From a virus, in the IMG/VR virus record IMGVR_UViG_3300034093_003606, positions 1 through 22,527 of that record: a stretch of 22,527 nt of DNA; one strand, given 5' to 3'. This document shows positions 4,894 to 14,107 of this stretch, one piece after another; the stretch's first letter is position 1; each line of letters begins with the position of its first letter. A program made the position numbers and the translations under genes. The notes below the pieces were generated by a model. It saw nothing but the letters and a program-made list of their open reading frames with translations. It did not search any database and was not told the origin of the DNA.

Positions 4894-5076
4894 ATGAAAA
4901 TGCTAATTGATACGACTGACTTAACTATTCCTTTGAGATATTACAAAGGATGGAATATCGAGTTCACTACCAAAACAGAAAGGTTTAATTCTCCTATTCT
5001 TGGTTTATTTGGGTTTTCTTCAGTGATTGACTTAGAGAAAGCAATTGACTATGCTCTGGAAATGCGTTCAAAATAA
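4894..5076 (+). CDS. Hypothetical protein, 60 aa
   Basis: I place the start at ATG 4894, one base after the preceding stop; a longer frame starting at ATG 4816 would run inside the upstream gene. The protein (MKMLIDTTDLTIPLRYYKGW, later GLFGFSSVIDLEKAIDYALEMR) has strand-like then helical character. The last part resembles the end of small phage proteins in which a LEKAIDYA-type helix closes the fold, but I cannot name a family. Confidence 0.6.
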   Translation: MKMLIDTTDLTIPLRYYKGWNIEFTTKTERFNSPILGLFGFSSVIDLEKAIDYALEMRSK

Positions 5077-7496: not shown

Positions 7497-7542
7497 GTAA
7501 TAATAATAACAGAGGAATAAATAATAAGCATCTAATAATAAG
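7497..7542 (+). repeat. AAT/TAA spacer tract with GC island
   Basis: AATAAT-rich run followed by a GC-rich stretch (7543-7580) containing CAGCCCCGCCAGCC, the same 14 bases as near 5721. The segment to 7630 is purine-rich and shows no ORF. Confidence 0.75.
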
Positions 7543-7630
7543 GCCCAGCCCCGCCAGCCACCCAGCAAACCGGCCAAGATAACCAGACAACTAAGGGCAG
7601 TCAACTAAGAAAAAAAGTCAGAAAAAGAGA

Positions 7631-7658
7631 TTGTGTTTCAAAGGTATTTGGTTAATCT
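7631..7658 (+). promoter_or_regulatory. Promoter for the first DUF932 gene
   Basis: TTGTGT (7631-7636), 16 bp, TAATCT (7653-7658). The predicted +1 is G7665, the first base of GTTCTTTGACATCCCGT, which is identical at the second DUF932 gene. Confidence 0.65.
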
Positions 7659-7664
7659 GTCTGT

Positions 7665-7759
7665 GTTCTTTGACATCCCGTGAGTCGATCCCGAGCCCGC
7701 TTCGCGGGTTTCGGTATGGCATCGTGCTATCGGCAAACGGATAGAAAGGAACGCAACCT
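7665..7759 (+). ncRNA. Structured mRNA leader of DUF932 gene 1
   Basis: Predicted 5' leader of 95 nt. Helices seen: outer ATCCCGT (7675-7681) with ACGGAT (7737-7742), one bulge; inner GTCGAT (7684-7689) with ATCGGC (7729-7734); hairpin CCGAGCCCGC (7691-7700) with GCGGG...TTTCGG (7704-7714) around TTC; hairpin GGCA/TGCT (7718-7728) around TCG. Together they form a three-way junction. The ribosome site AAAGGA (about 7746-7751) follows directly, so folding could affect ribosome access. The second copy at 8908 keeps the fold with different bases. Confidence 0.65.
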
Positions 7760-8614
7760 ATGGCTAGAAACACTGTTCCCCATTCCACCAACTTCGGCTT
7801 TCCTGTTTCTTTGGAGCCGCTTCACACGCAGGACGGAGTTAACTCCGGTCTGTTTGGGACGGTCCGAAGGGACGAAACCGGAGTCAGGGTATTCAGTTCT
7901 GCTTCGGAGCGGTATGGTCTGCTTCTCAATTCCACCTTTGTCGAACAGATTGAGGAAGGAATCGCCAAGGCTGGCTTGTCTGGCTTTGAGCGGGAAGCTT
8001 TTGTGTATGATAATGGAGCCCGATCCGAGTTTCGGTGGACGTTTAAGAATCGGACCATAAAGGTTCCCCAAGTTGGGGACGATATGGCGTTTCGGATAAC
8101 TGCCCGAAACAGTTATGATGGGACTTGGAAAGCTTCTTTGTTGGATTCGGTAATGCGGCTCGCTTGCTTAAACGGCGCAATTCGTTCTGAGAATGGATTG
8201 CTGCTATCTAAGAAACACACAAGCCGCTTAGATGTTTCAGTAATCGTGGCCGGTTTGGAAACTATGCTGAAACGGTTTGAAGAATGGGCTTGGGACTTGG
8301 AATTGCTAGTGCTGCCCGTAGGGCAGGCGCAGGGAAGCCACATTCTGAGTCACGCTCAGGAAGACGGAGTGATCACGGGAAGCGTCAGGGACGGCATTCT
8401 GGGCTTTTGGAATGCGCCCAGACGGTCCGAAGATGCAGACCGGACCCTGTTTAACCTTTGGAACGCAGGGACGGAATACACGACCCACGTTCTGGGGCGG
8501 GAAAGGAATCAATATTCCCAAACAATCAATGCAAGGTGGACAGATTACATCCTGCACATATCGAGAGACACAGATCTACTAGCAGAAGCTTCAGAGCCAA
8601 TAATAAACAACTAA
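7760..8614 (+). CDS. DUF932-family protein, copy 1
   Basis: A 284-aa protein of the phage/plasmid-like DUF932 family (function not established). It has the family's central part: VGDDMAFRITARNSYDGTWKA, RLACLNGAIRSENGL, then KHTSRLDVSVIVAGLETMLKRFEEW, with the conserved NSYDG and the RxxCxNG cluster. The start is supported by AAAGGA 9 nt upstream. It is a close paralogue of the gene at 9005 (identical start MARxTVPHS and matching ends). Each copy has its own promoter, structured leader and terminator. Codon use is more GC-rich than in the flanking AT-rich genes. Confidence 0.88.
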   Translation: MARNTVPHSTNFGFPVSLEPLHTQDGVNSGLFGTVRRDETGVRVFSSASERYGLLLNSTFVEQIEEGIAKAGLSGFEREAFVYDNGARSEFRWTFKNRTIKVPQVGDDMAFRITARNSYDGTWKASLLDSVMRLACLNGAIRSENGLLLSKKHTSRLDVSVIVAGLETMLKRFEEWAWDLELLVLPVGQAQGSHILSHAQEDGVITGSVRDGILGFWNAPRRSEDADRTLFNLWNAGTEYTTHVLGRERNQYSQTINARWTDYILHISRDTDLLAEASEPIINN

Positions 8615-8620
8615 CACACA

Positions 8621-8653
8621 GACCGGGGACGATAAATCCCCGGTCTTTTTTTT
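8621..8653 (+). terminator. Strong intrinsic terminator after DUF932 copy 1
   Basis: GACCGGGGA (8621-8629) pairs with TCCCCGGTC (8637-8645); eight T follow. Confidence 0.95.
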
Positions 8654-8658
8654 GTCTA

Positions 8659-8780
8659 TTAATAATAAATAATCAAATAATAATAACACCAGAATAAATA
8701 ATAATACTCGAATAATAAATAATGCCAGAATAATAAAGAATAATGAAATAATAATAAATAATAACTAAATAATAATAGCA
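8659..8780 (+). repeat. Long AAT/TAA spacer tract
   Basis: About 120 bp of AATAAT and AATAAA units with short inserts such as CACCAG and TGCCAG. It is the longest such tract in the window. No ORF of more than a few codons. Confidence 0.85.
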
Positions 8781-8823
8781 GGGGCAGAGGGGGCGGGGCA
8801 GGGGCAGAGAAGGAGGGGCGGGG
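8781..8823 (+). other. G-quadruplex-type G-rich block
   Basis: GGGG runs at 8781, 8789, 8795, 8801, 8815 and 8820 with loops of 4, 1 and 2 nt between the first four. This fits a four-tetrad quadruplex on the plus strand. It is flanked by pure AT tract and lies just upstream of the promoter of the second DUF932 gene. Confidence 0.7.
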
Positions 8824-8830
8824 CTTTCCC

Positions 8831-8865
8831 AGTTACTTAAAATGGCTCACTTAGTTACCTTAAAA
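8831..8865 (+). repeat. Paired direct repeat upstream of DUF932 copy 2 promoter
   Basis: AGTTACTTAAAA (8831-8842) and AGTTACCTTAAAA (8853-8865), 22 bp apart, end 8 bp before the -35 box. Two helical turns between copies suits a regulator binding one face. None is seen before copy 1. Confidence 0.5.
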
Positions 8866-8873
8866 AAAAAGAC

Positions 8874-8901
8874 TTCCCAAATCAGGATTCCATGATAATT
8901 T
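8874..8901 (+). promoter_or_regulatory. Promoter for the second DUF932 gene
   Basis: TTCCCA (8874-8879), 16 bp, TAATTT (8896-8901). The -35 is poor but spacing and -10 fit. The predicted +1 is G8908. Confidence 0.55.
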
Positions 8902-8907
8902 GATCCT

Positions 8908-9004
8908 GTTCTTTGACATCCCGTTAGCTGATCCCGGCTCCACTTTCAGTGGTTCCGGGTTGGGATTGTCCTATCGGCGAACGGATTGAAAAGAGCATAC
9001 AACT
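8908..9004 (+). ncRNA. Structured mRNA leader of DUF932 gene 2
   Basis: Starts with the same GTTCTTTGACATCCCGT as copy 1. Helices: ATCCCGT (8918-8924) with ACGGAT (8981-8986); GCTGAT (8927-8932) with ATCGGC (8973-8978), where the G-T wobble has moved one place compared with copy 1; hairpin CCCGG...TCCACT region (8933-8944) with AGTGG...CCGGG (8948-8959) around TTC, with a different stem sequence; GGGA/TCCT (8962-8972), where a C-G pair of copy 1 is now G-C. The single-stranded linkers are conserved. AAAAGAG (about 8989) lies between the fold and the ATG. Confidence 0.65.
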
Positions 9005-9862
9005 ATGGCTCGTCAAACTGTCCCCCACTCCAGCAACTTCGCCTTCCCGGTGACCTTGGAACCGCTGACCGTCGAAGGTTACGATTCCGGGTTTTACGGT
9101 ACGGTGCGCCGGGATGAGGGATTCCCCCGAGTTCTCGGGGTTGCAGGTGAGCGGTACGGCCTGCTTCAGAACGGTGATTTCATCAACCAGATTGAGGAAG
9201 GCTTCAAAAAAGCTGACCTCAGCGGGTTTGAGCGCGAAGTCTCGGTCATGGATCACGGTGCGCGGTGTCAAGCTCAGTGGACTTTCAAGAACCGCACCAT
9301 TAAGGTGCGGAAAGTGGGCGATGAAATGGCGTTCCGCGTTACGGCGCGGAACTCCTACGATGGCTCATGGAAGGTCAGTCTGGTTGACACTATTGAACGC
9401 CTCGCCTGTCTCAACGGCGCGGTGCGGAGTGAAAAGGGAATCATGCTTCAGGGGAAGCACACTTCCCGGCTCAACGTTGACCGCATCGTGGGCGGATTGG
9501 GAACGATGCTTCAGCGGTTTGAGACTTGGGCGCAGGATTTGGATCTTCTGGTTCTTCCCATCACTCAGGCTCACGGTTCCCATATCTTGAGCCATGCTCA
9601 GGATGATGGGATCATCTCGGGGTCAACCCGAGACGGTATCCTGAGTTTCTGGAATGCGCCGCGCCGGAAGGAGGATGAGGAACGCACCGTTTACAACCTC
9701 TGGAACGCCGGGACTGAGTTCTTCACTCATGTCTTAAAACGGGAACGGTTCCAGTATGCCGACACCGTGAACGCCGAGTATACGGGTTGGATGATGGAAA
9801 TAGGCCGAGACAAGGACAAGCTCCTGCGGGTGACAACCCCGCTGGAACTAGTGAATAACTAA
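9005..9862 (+). CDS. DUF932-family protein, copy 2
   Basis: 285 aa, DUF932 family. It keeps MAFRVTARNSYDGSWKVS, RLACLNGAVRSEKG, KHTSRLNVDRIVGGLGTMLQR and the C-terminal LSFWNAPRRKEDEERTVYNL. By eye about two thirds of the residues match the copy at 7760 along the full length, with no gap of note, so this is a duplication followed by divergence. Third positions are richer in G and C than in copy 1, which suggests that the copies were not recently duplicated in place. DUF932 proteins are common in phages and plasmids; their role is open. Confidence 0.88.
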   Translation: MARQTVPHSSNFAFPVTLEPLTVEGYDSGFYGTVRRDEGFPRVLGVAGERYGLLQNGDFINQIEEGFKKADLSGFEREVSVMDHGARCQAQWTFKNRTIKVRKVGDEMAFRVTARNSYDGSWKVSLVDTIERLACLNGAVRSEKGIMLQGKHTSRLNVDRIVGGLGTMLQRFETWAQDLDLLVLPITQAHGSHILSHAQDDGIISGSTRDGILSFWNAPRRKEDEERTVYNLWNAGTEFFTHVLKRERFQYADTVNAEYTGWMMEIGRDKDKLLRVTTPLELVNN

Positions 9863-9869
9863 ACATCAA

Positions 9870-9903
9870 AGCCGGGAGCGTAAAACCTCCCGGCTCTTTT
9901 TTT
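9870..9903 (+). terminator. Strong intrinsic terminator after DUF932 copy 2
   Basis: AGCCGGGAG (9870-9878) pairs with CTCCCGGCT (9887-9895), followed by CTTTTTTT. Confidence 0.95.
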
Positions 9904-9926
9904 GTTAGTTAGAAGGATTTCACTTT

Positions 9927-9989
9927 ATGCTAATATCAATAATAATCTTGGTAATAATGATATATTTTATCTTTAGTTTGCTCGAATAA
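9927..9989 (+). CDS. Transmembrane micropeptide, 20 aa
   Basis: Encodes MLISIIILVIMIYFIFSLLE, one membrane span. AGAAGGA (9911-9917) gives a good Shine-Dalgarno with a 9-nt gap to the ATG, the clearest ribosome site of any of the spacer peptides. The stop TAA begins the next AAT/TAA tract. It sits between a strong terminator and the next promoter; I see no good promoter of its own. Confidence 0.5.
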   Translation: MLISIIILVIMIYFIFSLLE

Positions 9990-10051
9990 TAATAAATGAT
10001 CGAATAATAATAACTATAACAATAATAATAATTCTAATAATAATAAATAAA
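9985..10051 (+). repeat. AAT/TAA spacer tract
   Basis: About 65 bp of AATAATAAT units. The rest of the gap to 10147 is AT-rich and holds no ORF that I can support. Confidence 0.8.
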
Positions 10052-10147
10052 ACAAATATCACTAGAAACTCACAAAAAAGGCTATTCTTATTTACTTTCA
10101 GAGACAGAATTAGTTGATAAGGGAAAAAACAATAGCTGAAAAAGAAA

Positions 10148-10176
10148 TTGATTGTTTGGGTTCATTTATTTAAATT
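10148..10176 (+). promoter_or_regulatory. Promoter for the 10186 gene pair, leaderless type
   Basis: TTGATT (10148-10153), 17 bp, TAAATT (10171-10176), then 9 nt to ATG 10186. Predicted leader about 3 nt. Confidence 0.6.
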
Positions 10177-10185
10177 GGTATCGCC

Positions 10186-10395
10186 ATGTACATAACAACA
10201 CCTGAGCAAAGCAAAACCGAAACGGCCCTTGCCAAGAAAGGGTTCCGTTTCTCCAGTTGGATTCCGTTTCAGCCAAACGCTGAAAACCAGCCGTCTGAGG
10301 GAACCGAAACCCTTGGCACCATCGTGATGGTGAAGCGAGCCACTCGGTTCTCCACTGAGTACCGCGAAATCGAGCCTGATGGCTCCATCAACTAA
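10186..10395 (+). CDS. Hypothetical protein, 69 aa
   Basis: Begins MYITTPEQSKTETALAKKGF and is polar, with a central PFQPNAENQPSEGTE region and a C-terminal basic strand part. No motif is recognised. The start lies 9 nt after a -10 box without a ribosome site. Its stop overlaps the start of the next gene (TAATG), suggesting translation of both from one mRNA, ended by the terminator at 10603. Confidence 0.65.
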   Translation: MYITTPEQSKTETALAKKGFRFSSWIPFQPNAENQPSEGTETLGTIVMVKRATRFSTEYREIEPDGSIN

Positions 10396-10595
10396 TGGTT
10401 TGCGAAGACTACCCCTGCTGCGGGCATGAGCCCGGCAGTTGCCCCATCGTCAACGATCAGGGCGAACTCTGTTATCCCTGCGCCAAATGCGGCTTCCTGA
10501 TGCCCCCAAAGGCACGGAGCGCGGTTTGCCAGCCGTGCCACTCAAAGTGGCAACGCCAGTGGCGCGACGACCCTACTGGCCAAGACAGTGACTGA
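10395..10595 (+). CDS. Cys-rich small protein, likely zinc-binding
   Basis: 66 aa with eleven Cys, many in close pairs: C3, CC at 8-9, C16, then CYPCAKCG (26-33) and CQPC near residue 50, plus His11 and His52. Such clusters fit two zinc-ribbon or knuckle sites. Small proteins of this look are common in phage early regions, where they may bind DNA or host proteins. It has an ATG overlapping the upstream stop by one base. Zinc binding is inferred from the Cys pattern only. Confidence 0.75.
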   Translation: MVCEDYPCCGHEPGSCPIVNDQGELCYPCAKCGFLMPPKARSAVCQPCHSKWQRQWRDDPTGQDSD

Positions 10596-10602
10596 AATAC
10601 AG

Positions 10603-10629
10603 CCCCCGGTTAACAGCCGGGGGTTTTTT
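10603..10629 (+). terminator. Strong intrinsic terminator
   Basis: CCCCCGG (10603-10609) pairs with CCGGGGG (10617-10623) and six T follow. Confidence 0.95.
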
Positions 10630-10635
10630 GTTTCT

Positions 10636-10703
10636 ATAAATAATAATAACATTAAATAATAACGTAATAATAAATAATAATAAATAAATAACCTAATAAT
10701 ATA
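10636..10703 (+). repeat. AAT/TAA spacer tract with GC island
   Basis: AATAAT/AATAAA run followed by GGGGCGGGGC (about 10718), a motif shared with the G-rich block at 8781. No ORF. Confidence 0.8.
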
Positions 10704-10791
10704 GCGCGGCTTCTAGTGGGGCGGGGCTTCTTGTATTTGGTTTATCTATAGGCAGGTAGGTTCCTGCTCGAAAAGAAATAGAAAAAAGAAC

Positions 10792-10819
10792 TAGTAAAAC
10801 AGCCGATCCATGTTAAATT
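10792..10819 (+). promoter_or_regulatory. Promoter for the 10882 gene
   Basis: TAAATT (10814-10819) in the family form with TTAAATTGATTGCAG matching the 12410 site; the -35 at 16 bp is poor (TAGTAA). The predicted +1 is A10826. Confidence 0.5.
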
Positions 10820-10825
10820 GATTGC

Positions 10826-10881
10826 AGTTCGAGAGCGTTTCTCGAACAGCAGAAAACCAAAACGTCGGTTCAACGAAACTT
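10826..10881 (+). promoter_or_regulatory. Structured leader with 5'-terminal hairpin, copy A
   Basis: GTTCGAGA (10827-10834) pairs with TCTCGAAC (10840-10847) around GCGTT. The hairpin starts one base after the predicted +1. The sequence after it (AGCAG, AACC...GGTT) resembles copy B at 12422. Confidence 0.65.
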
Positions 10882-11133
10882 ATGAAGATAGCTCGCAGCC
10901 AAGAAGAAGCTCTCAGCAGAGCCACCGCAGCACTGTCCGCCGAACTCTACGAAGTGGAGAAGGACATCAAGGCAACTCTGGCCAGCATCGACGCCTACGC
11001 CGAGGCTGACATTCCGGACTACCTGCGGATTGCGCTGGCCAACGGCAAGACCAGAGTGGCGGATTTGACGGTGGCTCGCATGAGCCTGTACGACATCTCT
11101 TGGTACGGAACCAAGGAGGCTCCGAAAGCCTAA
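10882..11133 (+). CDS. Hypothetical protein, paralogue of the 12480 gene
   Basis: The start is placed at ATG 10882, after the structured leader; a longer frame from TTG 10822 would translate the hairpin. The 83-aa protein is almost wholly helical. It aligns with the 12480 product: SIDAYAEADIP against SIDSAVEAGKE, then GKTRVADLTVARMSLYDI against GKLADTILARETLFDI. Family unknown to me. Codon use is GC-rich. It ends before a terminator with a UUCG loop. Confidence 0.75.
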   Translation: MKIARSQEEALSRATAALSAELYEVEKDIKATLASIDAYAEADIPDYLRIALANGKTRVADLTVARMSLYDISWYGTKEAPKA

Positions 11134-11146
11134 ACGGACTTGCAAC

Positions 11147-11172
11147 GGTGGCTCCTTCGGGAGCCACCTTTT
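11147..11172 (+). terminator. Intrinsic terminator with UUCG tetraloop
   Basis: GGTGGCTCC (11147-11155) pairs with GGAGCCACC (11160-11168) around TTCG, then TTTTG. C(UUCG)G is an unusually stable loop. Confidence 0.9.
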
Positions 11173-11173
11173 G

Positions 11174-11231
11174 TAATAACATTAATAAATAGAACAATAA
11201 TAATAACATTAATAATAATAACATAAATAAT
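11174..11231 (+). repeat. AAT/TAA spacer tract
   Basis: AATAATAAT units leading straight into the ATG of the 22-aa peptide at 11232. Confidence 0.8.
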
Positions 11232-11300
11232 ATGGCAATCTTTCCTATTCTCTTGGGGGTATTTATAATTGCAATGATCTTAGCCAACAGAAGAAGATAG
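11232..11300 (+). CDS. Transmembrane micropeptide, 22 aa
   Basis: The ATG follows AATAAT. Residues 1-18 (MAIFPILLGVFIIAMILA) form a membrane span; the tail NRRR is strongly basic, so the C-terminus should stay in the cytoplasm. No ribosome site is visible. It lies between a terminator and a promoter, like the other spacer peptides. Confidence 0.45.
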   Translation: MAIFPILLGVFIIAMILANRRR

Positions 11301-11325
11301 GTGTTTATTTAACTGATTTATTCTA

Positions 11326-11353
11326 TTGCAAAACGGGCAATCTAAAGTAATCT
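11326..11353 (+). promoter_or_regulatory. Promoter for the 11363 gene, leaderless type
   Basis: TTGCAA (11326-11331), 16 bp, TAATCT (11348-11353), then 9 nt to ATG 11363. Predicted leader about 3 nt. Confidence 0.65.
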
Positions 11354-11362
11354 AGGAATCGC

Positions 11363-11638
11363 ATGAAGCACCTAACACTGTCCCCCTACCGCGCCGGAAT
11401 GAAGGTTTGGGTTTCCATTCCTCGTACCGACGACATTGAACACCGCGCTATCGCGGGTATGCTCTTCGCAGAGCGATCACAGTACTATTGCTGGGGCGAA
11501 GAACAACCCGGCCATCGCATCGGGTTGGAAGCTGTCGTTCAGGCTTCGAAGCTGTCTGGATTCTTCAAAGATCTTCAAGATCTTCACAAGCTCCGTGATG
11601 GCGTCATGGTTTACTTCCAAGCCACCGATTGCCCATAA
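11363..11638 (+). CDS. Hypothetical protein, 91 aa
   Basis: Begins MKHLTLSPYRAGMKVWVSIP and looks like a small alpha/beta protein; the middle reads AIAGMLFAERSQYYCWGEEQ, the end VMVYFQATDCP. No recognised family. Its ATG lies 9 nt after a -10 box and no Shine-Dalgarno precedes it. It is a single-gene cassette closed by the terminator at 11653. Confidence 0.7.
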   Translation: MKHLTLSPYRAGMKVWVSIPRTDDIEHRAIAGMLFAERSQYYCWGEEQPGHRIGLEAVVQASKLSGFFKDLQDLHKLRDGVMVYFQATDCP

Positions 11639-11652
11639 CACCATAACACACA

Positions 11653-11683
11653 AGCCCCTAGGATAAAACCTAGGGGCTCTTTT
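11653..11683 (+). terminator. Strong intrinsic terminator
   Basis: AGCCCCTAGG (11653-11662) pairs perfectly with CCTAGGGGCT (11669-11678); CTTTT follows. Confidence 0.95.
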
Positions 11684-11685
11684 GT

Positions 11686-11725
11686 TTTAATAATAAAGAA
11701 TAATAATAGTAATACTAATAATAAT
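11686..11725 (+). repeat. AAT/TAA spacer tract
   Basis: Short AATAAT run ending at the ATG of the next micropeptide. Confidence 0.75.
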
Positions 11726-11785
11726 ATGTTTGTCCTTATTCTCCTCTTCTTTATATTCTATGTTGTAGTTAAGCTGACAGACTAG
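11726..11785 (+). CDS. Transmembrane micropeptide, 19 aa
   Basis: Encodes MFVLILLFFIFYVVVKLTD and stops at TAG 11783-11785. The plan, about 15 hydrophobic residues and a K-L-T-D end, resembles the peptides at 4361 and 9927. Start directly follows AATAAT; no Shine-Dalgarno. Confidence 0.45.
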   Translation: MFVLILLFFIFYVVVKLTD

Positions 11786-11818
11786 GAAAACCCACTAAAA
11801 GAAAACACATAAAAGGTG

Positions 11819-11846
11819 TTGTTTATTTAAGATCCTGTAGTAAATT
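11819..11846 (+). promoter_or_regulatory. Promoter for the 11890 gene
   Basis: TTGTTT (11819-11824), 16 bp, TAAATT (11841-11846). Predicted +1 is A11853. Confidence 0.65.
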
Positions 11847-11852
11847 GAATGC

Positions 11853-11889
11853 ACCTCAGGCCAGTAACCTGAGAGCTGAAAGTAACACT
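11853..11889 (+). promoter_or_regulatory. Structured leader with 5'-terminal hairpin, copy C
   Basis: CTCAGG (11855-11860) pairs with CCTGAG (11868-11873) around CCAGTAA. The stem sequence is unrelated to copies A and B, but its place just after +1 and the AACACTATG end are shared with copy B. Confidence 0.6.
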
Positions 11890-12177
11890 ATGCAATACGT
11901 TCAAATCGAAGGCGGGACCATGACGGGTAAAATCATGCACACGCAAGGCGAGTGCAACCTTTGCGGTAAGGAGCGCCTTTCCGAATTCGTCGACGGGAAA
12001 ACCCGTATGGGACCGTGGGCGAACATGTGCATGCCTTGCTATCGCAAGGTAGGCGTAGGCCTAGGCGTGGGCCGTGGGCAACGCTACGCTGTGGTGACTC
12101 CGGAGTCCGGAAGCCTGAGCCTGAAAACCCAAGCGGCACAGGCGCACACGAGAGCAAAGGCCGATATGTTCGCTTAA
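11890..12177 (+). CDS. Putative zinc-binding protein, 95 aa
   Basis: The start at ATG 11890 is chosen because the longer frame from TTG 11845 would run through the leader hairpin. After MQYVQIEGGTMTGK comes CNLCGKERLSEFVDGK and then MCMPCYRKVGVG: two CxxC pairs about 25 residues apart that fit one zinc-ribbon site. A Gly-rich basic stretch (VGLGVGRGQR) follows, which could contact nucleic acid. No exact family is named. It ends before a terminator at 12196. Confidence 0.75.
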   Translation: MQYVQIEGGTMTGKIMHTQGECNLCGKERLSEFVDGKTRMGPWANMCMPCYRKVGVGLGVGRGQRYAVVTPESGSLSLKTQAAQAHTRAKADMFA

Positions 12178-12195
12178 CATTAGATTTAACACTAG

Positions 12196-12223
12196 CCCTC
12201 TGTAGTAATACAGGGGGTTTTTT
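12196..12223 (+). terminator. Intrinsic terminator
   Basis: CCCTCTG (12196-12202) pairs with CAGGGGG (12211-12217) with one wobble, then six T. Confidence 0.9.
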
Positions 12224-12227
12224 GTTT

Positions 12228-12286
12228 TAATAGAATAATAATAGAATAAAGAATAATAATAAAATAATAAATAATAATATACATAG
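12228..12286 (+). repeat. AAT/TAA spacer tract
   Basis: AATAAT units continuing into ATATACATAGTAGTATAG; followed by the GT-rich block at 12294. Confidence 0.8.
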
Positions 12287-12293
12287 TAGTATA

Positions 12294-12345
12294 GTGGTGT
12301 GGTGCGTGTGAGCGTGTGTGTGTATGCGGGTGCGCGTGTGTGAGA
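12294..12345 (+). repeat. GT/GC alternating block
   Basis: About 50 bp mostly of alternating purine and pyrimidine (runs of GTGTGT, GCGCGTGTGTG). Such tracts readily adopt Z-DNA under negative supercoiling. No ORF or promoter is seen in it. Confidence 0.7.
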
Positions 12346-12387
12346 GCTAAGGTGTATTGATACCCAAAAAGAAAAAGGAAAAAGGGA

Positions 12388-12415
12388 TTGCCAAAAAGGT
12401 ATTCTGTGTTAATTT
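12388..12415 (+). promoter_or_regulatory. Promoter for the 12480 gene pair
   Basis: TTGCCA (12388-12393), 16 bp, TAATTT (12410-12415). Predicted +1 is A12422. Confidence 0.65.
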
Positions 12416-12421
12416 GATTGC

Positions 12422-12479
12422 AGTTCGAGGGCGTTCCTCGAACCGCAGTAAACGAAACGCCGGTTTAAATTCAAACACT
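12422..12479 (+). promoter_or_regulatory. Structured leader with 5'-terminal hairpin, copy B
   Basis: GTTCGAGG (12423-12430) pairs with CCTCGAAC (12436-12443) around GCGTT. Against copy A one A-T pair has become G-C, keeping the stem. The hairpin starts one base after the predicted +1. Confidence 0.65.
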
Positions 12480-12722
12480 ATGTCGAAGTCTAAGACTCCT
12501 CAGTCCGTTGTCACCGCCTTGAATGAGGCGCGCTCCGCCCTCTACTCTCAACAGTTCGAACTGATCCGCAACTGCCAGCGGATTCAGCGTAGTATCGACT
12601 CCGCAGTCGAAGCGGGTAAGGAAGTCGACTCCTTCGACATCAACTTGCTGGCCGAAGCAAAGGGTAAGCTGGCCGATACTATCCTTGCACGGGAAACGCT
12701 ATTCGACATCCCGAACCTCTAA
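12480..12722 (+). CDS. Hypothetical protein, paralogue of the 10882 gene
   Basis: 80 aa. The start is at ATG 12480, matching the paralogue's position after the leader; longer frames from 12357 would run through the promoter. The protein is helical (ALNEARSALYSQQFELIRNC, then a GKEVDSFDINLLAEAKGKL segment) and ends ARETLFDIPNL like its paralogue's ARMSLYDI. Similarity of the leaders as well as the proteins shows that the whole unit was duplicated. A GC hairpin follows, then the next gene. Confidence 0.75.
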   Translation: MSKSKTPQSVVTALNEARSALYSQQFELIRNCQRIQRSIDSAVEAGKEVDSFDINLLAEAKGKLADTILARETLFDIPNL

Positions 12723-12735
12723 GTCTCACCACAAC

Positions 12736-12757
12736 GGCGGGGACGCAAGTCCCCGCC
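12736..12757 (+). other. Intercistronic GC-rich hairpin with GCAA loop
   Basis: GGCGGGGAC (12736-12744) pairs with GTCCCCGCC (12749-12757) around the GNRA loop GCAA. No T-run follows, so read-through to the gene at 12769 is expected. Same arrangement as at 6402. Confidence 0.75.
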
Positions 12758-12768
12758 ACACACACACC

Positions 12769-13041
12769 ATGAAACTCCTCGAAGACGCTTATCCGCTTTC
12801 CGCAACCTTTCCCATTGCAGGGGGGACTTGCTTCATCCGTTTCTTCATTAATTGGAATTTGACCGAAAAGGGACACGTTGAAATCGTGTCGCTTGAACCA
12901 CAGCATGAAGTCAACGGCATCGTCTGGGCTGCTTTCCTAGTCTGGGCCGAAGGACAAAAACCCGAGTGGACCCGATGGTTGGACGGTATCGTCGAAGACG
13001 CAAGGCACGCTCAAAACGACTGGCTCCTTTCACGCTATTGA
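12769..13041 (+). CDS. Hypothetical protein, 90 aa
   Basis: Start at ATG 12769, after CACACACACACC; no ribosome site is visible. The protein has a strand-rich N-terminal half (ATFPIAGGTCFIRFFINWNL) and many Trp in the C-terminal half (VWAAFLVWAEGQKPEWTRW). No family recognised. It is second in the 12480 unit and is followed by a strong terminator. Confidence 0.65.
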   Translation: MKLLEDAYPLSATFPIAGGTCFIRFFINWNLTEKGHVEIVSLEPQHEVNGIVWAAFLVWAEGQKPEWTRWLDGIVEDARHAQNDWLLSRY

Positions 13042-13070
13042 ACGAAAGTCAATTCGAAAGTTCTGCAACG

Positions 13071-13099
13071 GGGTGGGTCCGAAAGGGCCCACCCTTTTT
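13071..13099 (+). terminator. Strong intrinsic terminator with GAAA loop
   Basis: GGGTGGGTCC (13071-13080) pairs with GGGCCCACCC (13085-13094) around GAAA, with one wobble; TTTTT follows. Confidence 0.9.
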
Positions 13100-13371
13100 G
13101 CTTTTTGTCAACTTTTTTTTTCGAAAAAAAACCCCCGGGGCCCTTTTTTCATTCTCCCCTATTCAATTAAACTCTTCTAATAAACCAAATTAAAAAATTC
13201 ACGGGCCTTTATTTTCTCTATAGGTCTATTAAGTTAAAAAATAAAAAAAACAAAAGCCCTACCCTTTTTAATTAATACTATATATATCTCATACAACAAA
13301 AAAAACAAAAACAAAAATATACCCGAGCCTTTTCTCTTCTATAGTCCTTTTAAGATGCTAATAGAATTTTC
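13100..13371 (+). other. AT-rich spacer with palindromes and an imperfect repeat
   Basis: No ORF supported. It holds TTTTTTTTCGAAAAAAAA (13114-13131), then CCCCGGGG, and two similar segments, GCCTTT...CTATAGGTCTATTAAG (about 13205-13232) and GCCTTT...CTATAGTCCTTTTAAG (about 13326-13353). It separates the cassette region from the barrel gene. Confidence 0.6.
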
Positions 13372-13408: not shown

Positions 13409-14107
13409 ATGAATACACTATTCAAAATTGCACTATTAATTGCAACACTAACTACAGCGGCCTTTGCCCAAAATGCCCCAGTTCGCGCCTCTTTTGAGGC
13501 TGGCTACACATCAACGTACCTTGTGAACGGTTTGTCTCGCACCAAGGCTACTCCTTTTGCAGGAGTTGGTCTTGGTTCGACATACTACGGCATTGATGTA
13601 GGAGTGTCTGGCACGATTCTCCCAGTTAATGAGAATCTCGATGAAAGTCACTGGGCTTTCAATGTAGGAAAGGGTTTCCAACTCTTTGAAGGCGTGACCT
13701 TGCGCACAGATGGTTCGGTAATTCGTCACCAAGCTGGCGATCCAAACATCCCAAACTCCACAGAAGCAAATATTAAGGTTGCTCTGCAGAATCCAATCTT
13801 TACTCCTTATGCCAAGGCAGTATATGATATTAATCTAGAGCAATATGGATATGGAGTTGGACTAGAGCGCCCAACTAGCGTGTTTGGCTGGTTCACTGTT
13901 ACTCCTGCTTTGGAGTACATTAAGTTAAGTGATTCTGCTAATGCCATTGCTAAGCTTGGAGTGAGCCGAGTATTCTTTGAGCGTCTAACAGTATTTGCTG
14001 AAGCTACTTATGTTCAGAATGATTTTGATGTAAATACCTTTAACTTTGCTCGCAAGGAGTTGAATGGCGAGGTGGTCGGGGCTGGTGGTTTGCGCTGGAC
14101 CTTCTAA
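13409..14107 (+). CDS. Putative outer-membrane beta-barrel with signal peptide
   Basis: 232 aa. MNTLFKIALLIATLTTAAFA is a classic Sec signal peptide with cleavage likely after AFA, before QNAP. The mature part alternates short aromatic strands and turns (FEAGYTSTYLVNGLSRT, then FAGVGLGSTYYGIDVGVSG) and ends GGLRWTF, with the terminal Phe used by the BAM machinery to recognise outer-membrane proteins. The start of the mature domain resembles TorF-like porins (STYLVNGLS against the family's SDYVFRGIS), which is a tentative match. A phage gene of this kind could alter the host surface or block superinfection, which is inference. It is a lone unit with its own promoter and terminator. Confidence 0.75.
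   Translation: MNTLFKIALLIATLTTAAFAQNAPVRASFEAGYTSTYLVNGLSRTKATPFAGVGLGSTYYGIDVGVSGTILPVNENLDESHWAFNVGKGFQLFEGVTLRTDGSVIRHQAGDPNIPNSTEANIKVALQNPIFTPYAKAVYDINLEQYGYGVGLERPTSVFGWFTVTPALEYIKLSDSANAIAKLGVSRVFFERLTVFAEATYVQNDFDVNTFNFARKELNGEVVGAGGLRWTF

Follow-up and report, generated by a model that had tools for sequence, protein, structure and literature searches.

What is the sequence that stands before each of the two DUF932 genes of this phage, and what does it do there? DUF932 is a widespread protein family in phages, plasmids and bacteria whose function is unknown. The stretch of DNA analysed here (22,527 nucleotides, hereafter the window) comes from an uncultured tailed phage, of which it is a 22.5-kb piece carrying terminase, PhoH-like, GP88-like and ERCC4-like genes. 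Two of its proteins score 38.5 and 32.7 bits against the Pfam curated cut-off of 23 and are thus members of DUF932 (PF06067); they are paralogues with 66% amino-acid identity. Each is encoded in a monogenic unit with a strong terminator of its own, after which a fresh promoter serves the next gene:

7760..8614, + strand, DUF932 gene A (284 aa; PF06067, E 8e-8)
8620..8646, + strand, intrinsic terminator 3' of gene A
9005..9862, + strand, DUF932 gene B (285 aa; PF06067, E 1.4e-9; AlphaFold2 model with pLDDT 84)
9870..9895, + strand, intrinsic terminator 3' of gene B

Single-sequence folding of the segments upstream of the two start codons, leader A (95 nt) and leader B (97 nt), gave one common nested fold with energies of -35.6 and -41.2 kcal/mol and z of -2.3 and -4.6, respectively. 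A 5'-terminal closing helix (P1) is followed by stacked P2 and P3 and by a three-way junction carrying the hairpins P4 and P5:

7665..7759, + strand, leader A, structured 5' UTR RNA of DUF932 gene A (fold, covariation model match, conservation)
7665..7671, + strand, A P1 5' strand GUUCUUU (5'-terminal), pairing with 7746-7752
7675..7681, + strand, A P2 5' strand AUCC(C)GU, pairing with ACGGAU at 7737-7742
7684..7689, + strand, A P3 5' strand GUCGAU, pairing with AUCGGC at 7729-7734
7690..7715, + strand, A P4 variable hairpin, its stem fast-changing yet always paired
7718..7728, + strand, A P5 hairpin GGCA-UCG-UGCU, with a C-G to G-C compensation relative to copy B
7746..7752, + strand, A P1 3' strand AAGGAAC, candidate Shine-Dalgarno/ribosome landing zone, 7 nt before ATG
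8908..9004, + strand, leader B, structured 5' UTR RNA of DUF932 gene B
8908..8914, + strand, B P1 5' strand GUUCUUU, pairing with 8990-8996
8918..8924, + strand, B P2 5' strand, pairing with 8981-8986
8927..8932, + strand, B P3 5' strand GCUGAU, pairing with 8973-8978
8933..8959, + strand, B P4 variable hairpin
8962..8972, + strand, B P5 hairpin GGGA-UUG-UCCU
8990..8996, + strand, B P1 3' strand AAAGAGC, 8 nt before ATG

A closing helix like P1 of leader A was reached in only 3 of 500 shuffled sequences. The preliminary description had both leaders opening with the same 17 bases, and GTTCTTTGACATCCCGT is indeed identical at 7665 and 8908; the inner helix that it reported (GTCGAT or GCTGAT with ATCGGC) is present as well, as are hairpin stems that differ in sequence and still pair (CCCGC/GCGGG versus CCACT/AGTGG round TTC, and GCA/TGC versus GGA/TCC). 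Two of its assignments have to be revised: CTATCGGC and ACGGAT, taken for conserved linkers, are really the 3' strands of inner helices, and the ribosome site, placed directly after the structure, would be the 3' strand of the outer helix itself (AAGGAAC in A, AAAGAGC in B). A conserved uORF or N-terminal extension was also considered and rejected: candidate frames differ between the copies, and stops occur in both window leaders and in leader B of the related phage L001.

From the position of hexamers resembling a -10 element, we infer that transcripts start at the G of GUUC:

7653..7658, + strand, -10-like hexamer TAATCT of unit A, 6 nt before the predicted +1
8896..8901, + strand, -10-like hexamer TAATTT of unit B

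All seven leaders considered have such a hexamer (TAATCT, TAATTT, TATTCT, TAGGTT or TTAACT) upstream of the G, at a spacing of exactly 6 nt. The earlier placement of the leaders at +1 is plausible, but a standard sigma-70 scan, which found no consensus promoter match near the DUF932 leaders, does not support it.

To what extent is this pairing selected? Leader alignments comprise five close sequences from three phages, three orthologous leaders being supplied by the IMG/VR phages L001 (A and B) and L002 (B) in addition to the window pair, and all five fold alike (z -2.3 to -4.6). In a structural alignment made by hand, standard pairs fill 163 of 164 cells, and compensated double changes occur at six pairs, five of them within P4. 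Because the hand alignment favours P4, an independent count on a program-made alignment matters: there, 94.7% is paired and five pairs have changed on both sides, the covariation score is 0.238 versus 0.136 +/- 0.021 in shuffles (1 of 500 reaching it), and pairing falls from 94.7% to 38-54% when the partners are slid along. Between A and B, all 10 changed pairs still pair (P = 7e-5 for random substitution at these sites, again on the hand alignment that favours P4). Fourfold-degenerate sites of the two genes are 31% identical, that is, saturated, and 51 of 62 leader-core positions (82%) are identical (Fisher P 3e-10 versus silent sites). Five one-sided changes (P1 TA/TG twice; P3 GC/GT, TG/CG and CG/TG) swap Watson-Crick pairs for G.U; as these are neutral on the + strand alone, selection acts on the RNA. 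A DNA cruciform and a minus-strand RNA were rejected as candidates, since the same five changes, read from the opposite strand, give A.C mismatches.

As the window and L001 are alike in their intergenic DNA as a whole (86-100% conserved), the comparison of orthologues alone is not special. P4 changes even from one orthologue to another, whereas the core is kept (P 2e-5 and 3e-6), and in leader A of L001 P4 is wholly different in sequence and still paired; a drifting P4 beside a steady core speaks for a core that is specifically recognised and against a mere hairpin or base pairing as such. Fold, compensation and conservation together bear out the original proposal that both DUF932 mRNAs have a cis-located structured RNA at their 5' ends, and a selected 5' UTR secondary structure, shown by compensatory changes, is well supported. 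At +10 the base is C in both window leaders (7674 and 8917) and in L002 B, and A in both leaders of L001 (1671 and 2913); that the two copies change in concert may point to gene conversion or to a common trans-acting partner.

The leader was found solely before DUF932 genes by covariance model R1 within the three records (window, L001, L002). Searches with R1 returned no leader beyond the known copies at 78 distant DUF932 phage loci, where the proteins that aligned over their full length are 22-28% identical and the genes mostly lie close behind other genes, and only the known copies at 80 loci of terminase relatives, a common group with 209 members in IMG/VR. Wider leader patterns gave extra matches in IMG/VR that were chance-like and lacked the fold; neither the leader pattern nor the DUF932 protein was found in bacterial and archaeal genomes, the window DUF932 had no match in cultured phages, and its plasmid relatives were confined to Vibrio/Aliivibrio (24-28%). 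Retention of the protein with loss of the pairing, which the preliminary description had held to speak against the RNA, is thus seen at a distance (leader at 0 of 78 loci) and not among close members, five of five of which keep it.

Two further phages, L176 (ATG at 2605) and L207 (ATG at 302), carry near the same place a DUF932 gene of another subfamily, the two proteins being 59% identical to each other; that of L176 has no BLASTP similarity to DUF932 B and no phage match. Model R1 misses their leaders, which share no alignable core with those of the window. In both, nevertheless, the predicted first base is the G of GUUC, at a distance of exactly 6 nt from a -10-like hexamer (TAGGTT and TTAACT), and the first nucleotides (7 of 7 in L176, 6 of 7 in L207) close onto a zone 7-20 nt before AUG, a closure reached in 0 of 500 shuffles for L176 and in 17 of 500 for L207. 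We read this as a closing architecture that is deeply conserved at distant DUF932 genes, the L207 case being weak by itself.

Both units lie in an island (from about 7.6 to 13.1 kb, within window 7500-13200) with a G+C content of about 42-52%, versus 32-40% in the rest of the phage, that consists mostly of single-gene units, most with a strong intrinsic terminator, separated by spacers rich in AATAATAA; we regard the island as moron-like. Most of the fetched contigs of terminase relatives stop directly upstream of the gene at 13409, within the island, and since many related contigs end inside it, the island may be hypervariable. Other units of the island have folded leaders of their own. Two small paralogous genes are preceded by a stem of ~13 bp with the loop GCGUU:

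10819-10884 and 12416-12482 of the window, 4964-5028 and 6556-6623 of L017, and 1352-1419 of L138, + strand, second leader type (five copies, matches of model R2)

This type has no Rfam match at the gathering threshold, and its loop could pair with a downstream AACGC or AACGU into an H-type pseudoknot. Unit E, which encodes a zinc-ribbon-like protein, has a different 5'-end hairpin (window 11848-11892; L017 5988-6032), with a stem that varies by phage (CUCAGG/CCUGAG versus UCGGG/CCCGA). In L176 (3700-3826) and L207 (1400-1532) the next unit likewise has a strongly folded leader before a small gene (CCGGTGCGG..CACCGGAC in the former versus CCGGTGGGG..CCCACCGG in the latter). As the DUF932, small-paralogue and unit E leaders differ in type, leader types go with gene families in the island.

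How might such a leader act? P1 covers bases 8-16 before AUG and so overlaps the translation initiation region, as in an operator. With the leader folded alone, AUG itself is unpaired and it takes 5.9-9.2 kcal/mol to free the pre-AUG strand; once 36 nt of coding region are added, the pre-AUG strand gains other partners and the cost of freeing the 5' strand drops to 1.3-5.1 kcal/mol. Shine-Dalgarno pairing at the gene starts of this phage is not above background (mean -2.34 versus -2.33 kcal/mol), which is why the proposed effect is termed occlusion of the 30S landing zone and not sequestration of a Shine-Dalgarno sequence; that of leader B is poor. Most window genes lack such a sequence and have an A-rich stretch before the start, so the host probably initiates largely without it. 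A single stable fold was obtained, and neither a conserved alternative fold nor a ligand clue was seen for the DUF932 leaders; with Shine-Dalgarno use weak and a ligand clue absent, the 'switch' of the preliminary description is unsupported.

The leader is probably an RNA control element for the DUF932 genes. In the mechanism that we propose, each gene would form a one-gene transcription unit of promoter, leader, gene and terminator, and the first ~90 nt of its mRNA would fold as a three-way junction whose closing helix clamps the 5' end onto bases 8-16 before AUG, covering the landing zone of the 30S subunit. Ribosome entry would then compete with the closing helix, and a partner reading the sequence-constrained core would shift the balance between the two. 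The core is constrained and each protein family has its own leader type, for which an operator with a specific partner is the best fit; it is quite possible, if short of probable, that the leader is a translational operator of the DUF932 genes, read by a partner that is most likely DUF932 itself. Translational control is here deduced from the placement of P1, and autogenous control with the encoded DUF932 protein as partner is a guess. That DUF932 proteins in general would be RNA-binding autogenous regulators with the leader as their operator is rather unlikely; the idea draws on the GUUC/pre-AUG closing helix being kept where the DUF932 proteins are dissimilar by BLASTP. Comparison of the AlphaFold2 model with the PDB gave weak, unrelated matches only, none of them convincing, and comparison with BFVD gave good scores only for other DUF932/TIGR03299-like phage proteins; an RNA-binding fold was recognised for DUF932 in neither.

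Known systems offer partial parallels for such an operator. Riboswitches that sequester the ribosome site and leaders of r-protein genes have a conserved junction core, and their P1 is paired to the ribosome landing zone. The DUF932 leader is alike in both respects, whereas it stands outside the Rfam families and is restricted to one phage group. The autogenous operator of gene 32 in T4 and RB69 likewise has a folded 5' element adjoining the ribosome-binding region, in T4 a pseudoknot of ~28 nt followed by >40 nt with little structure (PMC535899); the DUF932 leader is instead a three-way junction of ~90 nt in which the closing helix itself lies over the pre-AUG zone, and the partner of this leader is putative. 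The gene 43 operator of the same phages is similarly placed just 5' of its own gene and reaches the ribosome site, but is a single hairpin of 16-18 nt (PMC3014915), in contrast to a multibranched RNA at +1.

Several other readings of the leader have to be weighed against a translational operator. It might be a generic 5'-terminal structure that has no specific partner and guards the mRNA against 5'-end-dependent decay, which would accord with a paired +1 base in all seven DUF932 leaders, with the other one-gene units (10.8, 11.85 and 12.4 kb) starting in or beside a hairpin, and with the strong terminators that end most island units; as a mere hairpin would drift throughout, whereas the core is nearly invariant beside the drifting P4, and as leader types differ between gene families, we consider this somewhat unlikely, albeit the most serious of the alternatives. 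A mere descent of the A/B likeness, by duplication or gene conversion of a functionless fold, is the least probable reading of all: the genes are paralogous (66% at the amino-acid level) and the +10 base changes in concert within genomes, but the core is kept where silent sites are saturated, stems change with compensation, and P4 of L001 A pairs despite its wholly different sequence.

The remaining two give the RNA a specific target of another kind. In a riboswitch, a small ligand at the three-way junction would stabilise or open P1, and a conserved-core junction adjoining the ribosome landing zone is a riboswitch-like layout; this RNA, though, has no Rfam relative even at permissive thresholds, was found in a single phage group, always before genes of unknown function, and has neighbours with other leader types, which speaks against a common ligand, so that a riboswitch seems improbable. 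Slightly less probable still is a nascent RNA of the put kind, which would bind RNA polymerase and carry it past pauses or terminators. The two stem-loops of HK022 putRNA act on the polymerase across terminators, and the DUF932 leader resembles them as a structured nascent RNA of a phage, at or near a putative +1, recalling putL in position and length (PMC9378689). Their architecture differs by inspection, however, putRNA consisting of two stem-loops and a triplex without a closing helix beside AUG; the 3' strand of the DUF932 leader lies against the start codon, a placement that put does not need, and the DUF932 units are monogenic and terminated, the next gene having its own promoter.

No match to Rfam 15 was obtained at the gathering threshold, only chance-level ones at E <= 10, and no paper linking DUF932 with an RNA motif or describing the leader was found in the literature searched, in agreement with the earlier statement that the RNA had not been described. 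A structured cis-regulatory leader is a known kind of element, while this RNA family is new: a covariation-supported family outside Rfam, from a group of phages with many relatives in IMG/VR. As the leader possibly answers to DUF932, it may provide a direct handle on what DUF932 binds.
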